Shown one piece after another: positions 1,879 to 5,758 of a stretch of 32,019 nt of DNA (within the stretch, counting starts at the first letter, position 1; each line of letters begins with the position of its first letter). The notes below the pieces were generated by a model. The model was not told the DNA's origin and made no database searches. It saw only the letters and a list, made by a program, of their open reading frames with translations. The translations under genes were made by a program, and so were the position numbers. Source of the stretch: a bacterium (lineage in GTDB: Bacteria > Patescibacteriota > Gracilibacteria > Peribacterales > Peribacteraceae); contig JAQCIJ010000013.1 of the NCBI GenBank assembly GCA_027592135.1, positions 1 through 32,019 of the forward strand, read 5' to 3'.

Positions 1879-2676
1879 TTACTCAAACATGATGAGTTGA
1901 TCTTCATTCTTTTTGCGAGAGGATTCTCCAAGCCCTGCAAATCTCCACGCCATCTCAAAAATTTGCCTCTGTGTTTGCGCGACTTCTGTACTTTCGATAA
2001 TGACACCAAAAACTTCTGATTCATCTTCGGCAAACGAAATAATTGCTACTTTGTTATCGTAAATATTAATTTCGTTATTTATCGGAAACTCTTTTGCCGA
2101 GACTAAGCGAATTTCTCTGTTACTCTGCTTATCTTTTCCGTGGACTTTTCGTCCCACTACATCGTCTGGAGCGATTCCCTTGAGATATATCCCCTTCTTC
2201 ACTCGCTGCGCGACGTATTGCTTGTCATATTCTTTCCAGAAGTTGCGAACAACATCGGAGTTTGCAAAGTTAAGAAGTTCTGTCTGCGCTGTCAGTGTAT
2301 CTTCATAGACATCACGTATACCCTCTACACCTTCGTAGTACCGTACACGAGGAGTACGGTGATGGTTTCCCATAAGGCCTTGCAAGTCAGGAAGCACGCG
2401 ATCGAGTGCTTCTGCATTCTTATGTGCTTCTATGCTGAGTTTCTCTGGTGCAATTGGCTGATAGGTCTTTACATTTTTCTTTCGTACAGCAGAAAAAATC
2501 CCACGCTTCGTTAATTTTTCGAGCTGGTTATATGTCGTAATACGATTAAACCCTGTGTTCTTGGCATAAGCACTCGCTGGAGCTGTGCCAATCTTTAATC
2601 CCGCTATGTAGAGCTTCGCTTCTTCTGTATCGAGGCCTACTGATTGAATAATATGTTGCAAAGCTGCTGTACTCAT
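1879..2676 (-). CDS. TrmB-family transcriptional regulator
   Basis: 265 aa. Residues 1-75 form a winged helix-turn-helix of the TrmB type: a sugar-regulator-like N-terminus with GLDTEEAKLYIAGL, then SAYAKNTGFNRITTYNQLEKLTKRG as the recognition helix and wing. The middle region (about 105-240) resembles the phospholipase-D-like effector domain of TrmB proteins, including a YYEGVEGIRDVYEDTL segment. Family members repress or activate sugar and central-metabolism genes; the ligand here is unknown. The ATG start is supported by a -10 TAGAAT nine bases upstream and a -35 TTGTAA. A perfect dyad lies across this promoter, so autoregulation is likely. Neighbours give no clear metabolic target. Confidence 0.8.
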   Translation of the reverse strand: MSTAALQHIIQSVGLDTEEAKLYIAGLKIGTAPASAYAKNTGFNRITTYNQLEKLTKRGIFSAVRKKNVKTYQPIAPEKLSIEAHKNAEALDRVLPDLQGLMGNHHRTPRVRYYEGVEGIRDVYEDTLTAQTELLNFANSDVVRNFWKEYDKQYVAQRVKKGIYLKGIAPDDVVGRKVHGKDKQSNREIRLVSAKEFPINNEINIYDNKVAIISFAEDESEVFGVIIESTEVAQTQRQIFEMAWRFAGLGESSRKKNEDQLIMFE

Positions 2677-2685
2677 AGGAGTTCT

Positions 2686-2716
2686 ATTCTAAAGCTGTTG
2701 TTCAAAATTACAACAG
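2686..2716 (-). promoter_or_regulatory. trmB promoter with overlapping dyad operator
   Basis: On the minus strand, TTGTAA (2708-2713), a 16-base spacer and TAGAAT (2686-2691) precede the ATG by 9 bases. CTGTTGT (2695-2701) and ACAACAG (2710-2716) form a perfect 7-8-7 inverted repeat covering the -35 box and spacer. The position fits an autorepressor site. Confidence 0.55.
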
Positions 2717-2790
2717 TTTTTGCGTTTAAAGAGAGGATCGTCTAATTGCTTACAAAGAGCCCAAAAATACCAAAAACATGTAATTAATAG

Positions 2791-2818
2791 TTGACGGGTA
2801 CTGGTGGATCGGTACAGT
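2791..2818 (+). promoter_or_regulatory. promoter of the orphan structured RNA
   Basis: TTGACG at 2791-2796, a 16-base spacer and TACAGT at 2813-2818 form a sigma-70-like promoter. The predicted transcript starts near 2825. No protein gene on this strand follows before the terminator at 3063-3116. Confidence 0.6.
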
Positions 2819-2824
2819 AGGCGC

Positions 2825-3116
2825 ACGTTTATTTTTTCCACTGTATCTCCTAGAAAGGAGGGTCTATGAGCCGAGCCACTTAATGCTGCTCATTGTAGCC
2901 TCGCAAGAGGCGTTGTGAACCGCGTAGCATCGCTACGCATACCTTGAAACCCCTACTAGGGGTTTGATCGAATTGATTCATGGCGAAGTCCTACGGGAGA
3001 TAGCCTACGGATCATGTGATCAAAAATTAAACGGAAATCAGCACGCCGAAAAGGATGCTGGTAGCCCCCCAATCAAGTAATTGGCTTTGGTCAATGAAAA
3101 ATTGCGGGGCTTTTTT
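2825..3116 (+). ncRNA. structured non-coding RNA of unrecognised family (about 290 nt)
   Basis: The stretch lies between a promoter (2791-2818) and an intrinsic terminator, has no credible ORF, and contains a series of perfect hairpins. These are CTCCT/AGGAG with loop AGAA (2847-2860); ATGAGC/GCTCAT (2865-2870 with 2888-2893); GCCTC-GCAA-GAGGC, a GNRA tetraloop (2898-2911); GCGTAGC/GCTACGC (2922-2938); AAACCCC/GGGGTTT (2947-2965); and CAGCA/TGCTG with inner CC/GG (3039-3060). CCTACGG occurs twice (2990-2996, 3004-3010). TAGAAAGGAGG at 2851-2861 would pair with the usual bacterial 16S 3' end. I do not see the landmarks of RNase P RNA, tmRNA, SRP RNA or 6S RNA. A raiA-type RNA is the first model I would test, but that is only a guess. 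Confidence 0.65.
3063..3116 (+). terminator. intrinsic terminator of the structured RNA
   Basis: AGCCCC (3063-3068) pairs with GGGGCT (3106-3111). The stem continues as CAAT/ATTG after one C-C mismatch and is followed by a run of T (3111-3116). Within the loop, CCAAT/ATTGG (3069-3073 with 3080-3084) offers a competing small hairpin. The T run overlaps the stop codon of the convergent dehydratase gene. Confidence 0.75.
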
Positions 3117-3405
3117 ACAGCAATGCATCAATCTTTGCCGCCAAGATGAAGTCATCTTCGCTTAAGCCTCCTGCGGAGTGTGTCGTTAGGCTAATTGTCA
3201 CGTTATTGTAACTATGGACGAAGATATCTGGATGATGATTTTGTTCCTCAGAAAGTTTCGCTACTTGGTTCACAAACACGATAGAATTCTGGAAATCATC
3301 TAATATAAAGGTTTTAGCTATTACTTTTCCGCCGTCTCCTACTTGCCATTGGATAATGTCTTTAAGGAGTTCTGCGGCTTGTATTTCTGAGAGGGGGGTG
3401 ATCAT
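3115..3405 (-). CDS. phhB: 4a-hydroxytetrahydrobiopterin (pterin carbinolamine) dehydratase
   Basis: 96 aa, the full length of the PCD/DCoH family. The signature EEQNHHPDIFVHSYNNVTISLTTH carries the His-His-Pro-Asp pterin-binding motif, and the C-terminal segment GGLSEDDFILAAKID is typical. The known reaction is dehydration of 4a-hydroxytetrahydropterin (EC 4.2.1.96). No aromatic amino acid hydroxylase is seen here, so the physiological substrate is uncertain. The ATG start has GATAAT (3414-3419) eight bases upstream, suggesting a leaderless message. The TAA stop lies inside the T run of the convergent RNA terminator. Confidence 0.9.
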   Translation of the reverse strand: MITPLSEIQAAELLKDIIQWQVGDGGKVIAKTFILDDFQNSIVFVNQVAKLSEEQNHHPDIFVHSYNNVTISLTTHSAGGLSEDDFILAAKIDALL

Positions 3406-4822: not shown

Positions 4823-5758
4823 GTGGAATTTACTACAGATGCTTCTGGTCGGCTTGATGCCATAATTGCTGCTCAAGACAGTACGCTTTCTCGGTCCAAG
4901 ATTCAGAAGGCTATTAAAGAAGGATCCGTGACGGTTAATGGAAAAGTAGTGGAGAAGTCATCATTGCAACTTGCAGAGGGTGATGTGATTGTTCTACGCA
5001 TTGATGCGTCATTAGTCATTAATCAATCGTCATTAGTACAACCAGTTAATCTCACGCTCGAAGTGTTATTTGAAGATGATGCTGTCGTTGTCATTAACAA
5101 GCCGGCAGGTTATGCCGTGCACCCAGGACATTCGATGGAAGAAAATGAGACCACAATTTTGCATGGTATTGCATACTTGTTTGCAGAACGAAAAATCCCC
5201 TTCTCTCCAGACTCTACACTTGTCCATCGTCTAGATAAGCCCACAACAGGATGCTTGGTGGTAGCAAAAAATGATGTATGTTTCGCAGCACTACAAAAGC
5301 AATTTGAGGAGCGTACTACCATAAAGAAATACCTCGCTATTGTTTCTGGAGTCCCCGAGCACACCGAGGCCACTATCGATGCTCCTATCGGACGTAACCT
5401 TACCGATCGTACAAAAATGTCTGTCTTAAAAACTTCAGTTTCTCGAGATGCAAAGACCACGTACCGCGTACTCGATGCAACAAGTGATTGTGCACTAGTA
5501 GAGTGTGATTTGCACACAGGTCGAACACATCAAATTCGTGTTCACCTATCCTCTATTGGTCATCCGATTTTGGGAGACGTACCCTATGGGTCCCCTGCTA
5601 ATAAAAAACTTTCCGAACACTACAACGTCTCGGGCTTATGTTTACACGCACGTACTATTGCATTTGTCTCTCCTGCAGATAATACACTACATACTGTAGA
5701 AGCTCCGCTATCGGATCTTCTTCTAGAAGTTGCGAAGGCAACTGGCCTTACGGTGTAA
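4823..5758 (+). CDS. rluD: 23S rRNA pseudouridine synthase, RluD/RluA family
   Basis: 311 aa. Residues 10-65 are an S4 domain (SRSKIQKAIKEGSVTVNGK). The catalytic domain contains HRLDKPTTG with the catalytic Asp at about 138, preceded by INKPAGYAVHPG and followed by GRTHQIRVHLSSIGHPILGD, all hallmarks of RluA/RluD enzymes that isomerise uridines in 23S rRNA. RluD is favoured over RluA because of the S4 domain and length, but RluB/C-type specificity cannot be settled from sequence alone. The GTG start has CAGAAT six bases upstream and no Shine-Dalgarno. The gene is divergent from tyrS (67-base gap) and overlaps the convergent FecR gene by 11 bases. Confidence 0.92.
   Translation: MEFTTDASGRLDAIIAAQDSTLSRSKIQKAIKEGSVTVNGKVVEKSSLQLAEGDVIVLRIDASLVINQSSLVQPVNLTLEVLFEDDAVVVINKPAGYAVHPGHSMEENETTILHGIAYLFAERKIPFSPDSTLVHRLDKPTTGCLVVAKNDVCFAALQKQFEERTTIKKYLAIVSGVPEHTEATIDAPIGRNLTDRTKMSVLKTSVSRDAKTTYRVLDATSDCALVECDLHTGRTHQIRVHLSSIGHPILGDVPYGSPANKKLSEHYNVSGLCLHARTIAFVSPADNTLHTVEAPLSDLLLEVAKATGLTV

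Follow-up and report, generated by a model that had tools for sequence, protein, structure and literature searches.

A conserved Shine-Dalgarno site in a folded, predicted short transcript of Candidatus Peribacter

Results

A conserved intergenic unit beside the pterin-dehydratase gene

An equivalent folded intergenic unit with a strong Shine-Dalgarno (SD) site adjoins the same pterin-dehydratase gene in all five genomes of the genus Candidatus Peribacter (CPR/Peregrinibacteria; G000–G004). In the window, the 32,019-nt stretch analysed here (contig C25 of the 1.12-Mb, 98% complete genome G000), the site is followed by a five-codon open reading frame (ORF). We put it at roughly an even chance that the unit specifies a folded micro-ORF transcript, regulated and SD-led, that acts through gated loading of ribosomes. 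The features of the locus are:

1879..2676, − strand: TrmB-like regulator, divergent neighbour (Pfam PF01978, E 2.2e-6)
2791..2818, + strand: sigma-70-like promoter TTGACG-16-TACAGT, shared with sister species G003 and G004
2798..2815, + strand: palindrome GTACTG-N6-CGGTAC in the −35/−10 spacer, candidate operator (this locus in G000, G003 and G004)
2825..3116, + strand: predicted transcript, ~292 nt (MFE z ~−4.5; start inferred from the −10 box)
2846..2861, + strand: SD-sequestering hairpin TCTCCT-AGAA-AGGAGG (GGAGG pairing probability 0.8–1.0)
2852..2861, + strand: Shine-Dalgarno AGAAAGGAGG, sole exact copy in the window (duplex with its own 16S tail −9.4 kcal/mol vs gene mean −1.6)
2866..2883, + strand: micro-ORF ATG AGC CGA GCC ACT TAA (MSRAT), from the sequence; counterparts MRKIC (G003) and MPLK (G004)
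2883..2918, + strand: possible coupled second ORF MLLIVASQEAL (TAATG overlap), from the sequence only; arrangement not conserved
2898..2911, + strand: GCAA-tetraloop hairpin GCCTCGCAAGAGGC, one copy per genome, in register in G000 and G003
2922..2938, + strand: perfect hairpin GCGTAGC-ATC-GCTACGC (fold analysis)
2947..2965, + strand: perfect hairpin AAACCCCT-ACT-AGGGGTTT (fold analysis)
3037..3062, + strand: hairpin ATCAGCA...TGCTGGT (+ strand fold)
3064..3116, + strand: intrinsic terminator, long stem with inner hairpin and T6 (covarying stem, three species)
3115..3405, − strand: pterin-4a-carbinolamine dehydratase, convergent neighbour and syntenic anchor (Pfam PF01329, E 4.6e-29)

With the dehydratase gene as anchor, the slot was found in 4/4 other genus genomes; JABIBA010000001 (Candidatus Peribacter) is the record matched by one of these, the sister genome G003. 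In each of the syntenic loci the unit ends in a hairpin followed by a T-rich tail. The unit is single copy in its genome, and a DNA similarity search of 57 relatives (E 0.001) returned its own copy as the sole match. A preliminary description of this DNA had argued that the unit is not a leader, and this holds: the convergent pterin gene starts at the T-tail, with TyrRS beyond it, and the next + strand gene with a family match lies at 4823. The regulated same-strand gene that a leader-peptide attenuator has directly downstream is thus absent from the locus.

The promoter, its palindrome and the terminator are kept in sister species

The sigma-70-like promoter of the preliminary description is present (TTGACG at 2791–2796, 16-nt spacer, TACAGT at 2813–2818) and occupies the same place, with a palindromic spacer, in two sister species. 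Bare promoter consensus sequences occurred at chance level (3 found vs 2.3 expected). The + strand has a predicted fold of −104.9 kcal/mol (z −4.6), a stability that 0/100 shuffles reached, and the − strand folds equally well (z −4.6). The choice of strand therefore rests on the promoter and terminator, and it is the comparative evidence that matters.

The promoter and the palindrome (GTACYG-N6-CRGTAC) are kept in the three closest species (G000, G003 and G004), with TTGACNNGTACYGN6CRGTAC recurring at equal spacing in G003 and G004. Exact matches to the promoter-palindrome pattern among 74 family genomes were confined to these three loci. A slightly longer pattern gave three matches in ~85,000 species genomes, a scan that may omit the window's own record, and two of these were the G003/G004 sister species. 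As read from the sequence, the promoter is a candidate for regulation with the palindrome as its operator. A genome-wide regulon for the palindrome was rejected, the three other exact matches in the genus all lying within genes, and looser matches in the family (two; L019 and L024) look ordinary. TrmB as the factor binding the palindrome was likewise unsupported; a different inverted repeat, CTGTTGT...ACAACAG, precedes the TrmB-like gene in the window and G003. This repeat is conserved (window 2690–2720; L005:2910–2945) and is likely the TrmB-like gene's own operator.

Fold z-scores at the five syntenic loci were −4.5, −3.7, −7.2, −5.7 and −7.8 (controls, −2.7 to +1.8). Folded intergenic regions are common in this genome (7.3% of 150-nt windows below z −3), and in a scan of noncoding segments the unit was not among the most extreme folds. 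The stems described previously, including the GCAA tetraloop, were all found, as was the T-tailed terminator (GCCCCCC...GCGGGGC-TTTTTT). The latter was not picked up by a simple terminator scanner; its stem is conserved and covaries in three species, 3/10 pairs changing on both sides (compensatory), and 96.7% of alignment cells are paired compared with 34–47% when the alignment is slid. Conservation in relatives thus extends to the promoter, terminator stem, SD and folding. The rest of the body does not align, even within the genus, where the fragments that do align did not lend themselves to a covariance model of the unit. Taken from its sequence and relatives, the transcription unit looks real.

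A strong SD site in a genome with few SD-led genes

GAAAGGAGG was found in all five syntenic units in one to two copies each. With 10 copies in 2.24 Mb (both strands of the genome), ~0.0013 would be expected in the unit. The longer AGAAAGGAGG has 15 copies in the five genomes, five of them within these units, including both copies in the G001 genome. An ATG follows 2–7 nt after GAAAGGAGG in 6/7 copies; in the window it lies four bases downstream of the SD. The preliminary description had reported no plausible protein, and in doing so overlooked this strong SD, ATG and 5-codon ORF (2852–2883). Its proposal of a stable functional RNA fares better with respect to the unit's own promoter and terminator, the folding at five loci and the lack of a known family, but not with respect to 'non-coding', the SD being kept in every species, with an ATG after it in 6/7 copies.

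The SD-led ORFs are MSRAT in the window, MRKIC and MQLCVKQRHPP in G003 and MPLK in G004, so that the three promoter-sharing species have micro-ORFs of 5 (G000), 5 (G003) and 4 (G004) codons. The micro-ORF is not universal, as the SD-led ORFs of G001 encode 54 and 60 aa; only these G001 peptides are partly hydrophobic. G002 has the SD hairpin, no ATG within reach and no SD-led ORF. No conservation was seen among the peptides. Overlapping ORFs also run as a chain (TAATG, GTGA, TTGA, TTGA) between 2866 and the terminator; this is probably chance, as the chain is missing from G003 and the majority of TGA stops share bases with a start codon.

Pairing of the SD is a further shared property. In the window, G003 and G002 the SD is paired with an upstream TCTCC, in G004 and G001 it is paired elsewhere, and at least one GGAGG is mostly paired at each of the five loci. 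The energy of the SD:16S-tail duplex ranged from −9.3 to −13.4 kcal/mol over the loci, compared with a mean of −1.6 and a 1% quantile of −8.9 for genes.

SD sites are not enriched ahead of the genes in this genome (GGAGG upstream of 0.35% vs 1.3% background), and only 10/495 genes have an SD-like motif. TATACT/TATAAT boxes end 6–9 nt before ATG genome-wide, e.g., at window 2676 and 3405 (− strand), and for this reason many genes look leaderless. The 16S 3′ end, ...GGATGGAACACTTCCTTACC (contig C37:16862 in L145, also L143 and L144), is identical in three species (G000, G002 and G003), making the anti-SD core CUUCC rather than CCUCC. In line with this, Ca. Peribacter riflensis is listed as SD-scarce and lacking CCUCC (PMC10783764). 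AAGGAGG can nevertheless pair with the CUUCC tail through one G-U. Against leaderless-looking genes, absent SDs and a CUUCC tail, the SD site of the unit stands out.

No known RNA family accounts for the unit

Rfam 15 covariance models gave no credible match in the window at gathering or relaxed thresholds (E up to 10), so that the check called for earlier found no family at or above gathering, and the syntenic homologues gave weak, sub-threshold matches only. The reported lack of RNase P and tmRNA landmarks was borne out, as both genes are elsewhere in the genome: RNase P RNA (RF00010) at C8:1326–1722 (131 bits) and tmRNA (RF00023), above cut-off, at C38:21432–21850 (75 bits). ARAGORN found no tmRNA in the window. 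Like raiA, 6S, ROOL, GOLLD, RNase P and tmRNA, some of which are of comparable size, the unit is intergenic and folded; unlike them, it has no covariance-model match and is unconserved even within a genus. A body that cannot be aligned inside one genus argues against a stable-fold family such as RNase P, raiA or 6S. Given also the silent Rfam search and the two genes found elsewhere, which already refute RNase P and tmRNA, a divergent housekeeping RNA (RNase P, tmRNA, SRP, 6S or raiA) is barely credible, with size and compact fold as the sole points in its favour. In the same searches, a SAM riboswitch match fell below cut-off at L056:1977–2109 (40.5 vs 44.4 bits), upstream of a metK-like gene.

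SD-led short ORFs elsewhere in the family

Across the 74 family genomes, AGAAAGGAGG-N3-8-ATG gave 80 matches, compared with 33, by our tally, for the reversed control. Seventy sites were read; 48 overlap long open frames, and many of these probably reflect chance or ordinary genes; the other 22 lie outside such frames. These 22 have ORFs of 3–115 codons and a mean fold z of −2.6 vs −0.9. Two of the 22 are micro-ORFs of 3–5 codons: MRERG (L180), upstream of a gene, and MSL (L181), in another genus. The MSL site has a likely terminator and the identical 16-mer SD hairpin TCTCCTAGAAAGGAGG found in the window, which may be convergent because an SD dictates its own complement. Homologous SD-led small proteins occur in other genera (L213/L215, L198/L206 and L169/L170).

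G000, the genome of the window, itself contains a second SD-led unit (L056:1430–1735; C8:36950–37250), here C8:37020, with z −8, a TTGACA-17-TAAAAT promoter, AGAAAGGAGG and a 55-aa ORF holding several perfect hairpins; it starts right beside a transposase-like ORF. Other observations in G000 were a TTGACA/TATAAT promoter with AAAGGAATCTATAATG and an 80-aa ORF packed with 6–7 bp hairpins (C33:3190–3530; z −7.7), short GCGGGCAGGGATGCCC repeats at a contig end (C54:14240–14450), and a palindromic repeat, TTAGCCGGCGGTTTAAACCGCCGGCTAA, which with its flanks is common to C29:81913, C53:372 and C28:5036 and is probably a small mobile element.

Discussion

The interpretation that we favour is as follows. 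The regulated promoter would yield a short, stable, leadered transcript built around a ribosome-binding site, an extended SD held in a hairpin by the upstream TCTCC. The 4–5-codon micro-ORF would come next, then several hairpins and the strong terminator. After the SD hairpin has opened, or has been displaced by a competing ribosome, 30S loading on the micro-ORF would follow. The effect may then arise from 30S loading itself, through a tiny peptide, a switch of RNA fold or stability, or a ribosome being tied up. What the comparison shows is conservation of the promoter, terminator, SD and folding; transcription, ribosome loading, its gating and its effect are inferred.

Two other readings of the same conserved elements appear doubtful. 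In one, the unit is a trans-acting, structured non-coding small RNA, its SD-like stretch serving as a motif for pairing or for protein binding and its ATG being incidental. The strong folding at all five loci, the conserved promoter and terminator, the GCAA hairpin kept in two species, the unconserved peptide and the G002 motif lacking a following ATG would all fit. However, 6/7 motif copies have an ATG at SD spacing, and the motif matches the organism's own 16S tail better than ~99% of its genes. In the other, similarly unlikely reading, a fast-evolving small-protein gene is intact in G001, whereas in G000, G003 and G004 decay or frame breaks have left a few codons of it. The 54- and 60-aa ORFs of G001, the 55-aa ORF at C8:37020 and the homologous small proteins in other genera speak for it. 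Yet Pfam and PHROGs gave no relatives for the G001 ORFs, and decay would not be expected to leave 4–5 codons in three species with SD, promoter and terminator intact.

It is quite improbable that the unit is the remnant of foreign DNA or of a mobile element and acquired its canonical SD from a donor that uses SDs. The presence of such an SD alongside a CUUCC 16S tail would fit this origin, and the element at C8:37020 does adjoin a transposase-like ORF, but the unit is single copy, its locus has no transposase, and a shared position in five species with a conserved promoter and covarying terminator disfavours it. CsrA-sponge and integron-cassette ideas were considered and no support was seen for either.

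Known systems resemble the favoured micro-ORF transcript in part. Dual-function small RNAs and type I toxin mRNAs are structured short transcripts with an SD locked in a hairpin and a small ORF, as here. Unlike type I toxin mRNAs, the window species has no conserved or hydrophobic peptide and no antisense partner was identified; its peptide is MSRAT rather than a small hydrophobic toxin. Lambda bar is one example of a minigene, and with it and the axe-txe minigenes the unit of the window shares an SD suitably spaced from a start codon, then a few codons and a stop; those minigenes sit in larger messages, whereas the unit stands alone between its own promoter and terminator. Minigenes of this kind occur in the axe-txe operon (PMC8708949). 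In SD-blind Flavobacteriales, rpsU, which encodes bS21, carries an extended SD, the 16S tail there being sequestered (PMC9976891). This too is a rare strong SD where genes otherwise do without, and a candidate for ribosome-level control. Here, in contrast, the tail is mutated rather than sequestered, and the ORF has five codons and encodes no ribosomal protein.

A bolder and rather improbable extension is that this RNA family keeps the old SD signal as a dedicated 30S handle in bacteria largely without SD initiation, a regulated RNA whose gated SD and disposable micro-ORF would serve to capture or sense ribosomes, independently of the peptide. More generally, strong folding and the lack of a long ORF do not by themselves make an intergenic region a non-coding RNA. 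The locus bears on whether CPR bacteria without SD-led genes make any use of SD:anti-SD pairing. Present in every genus genome, it forms, together with the ~20 intergenic SD-led short ORFs in the family, a short list of transcripts for direct test.
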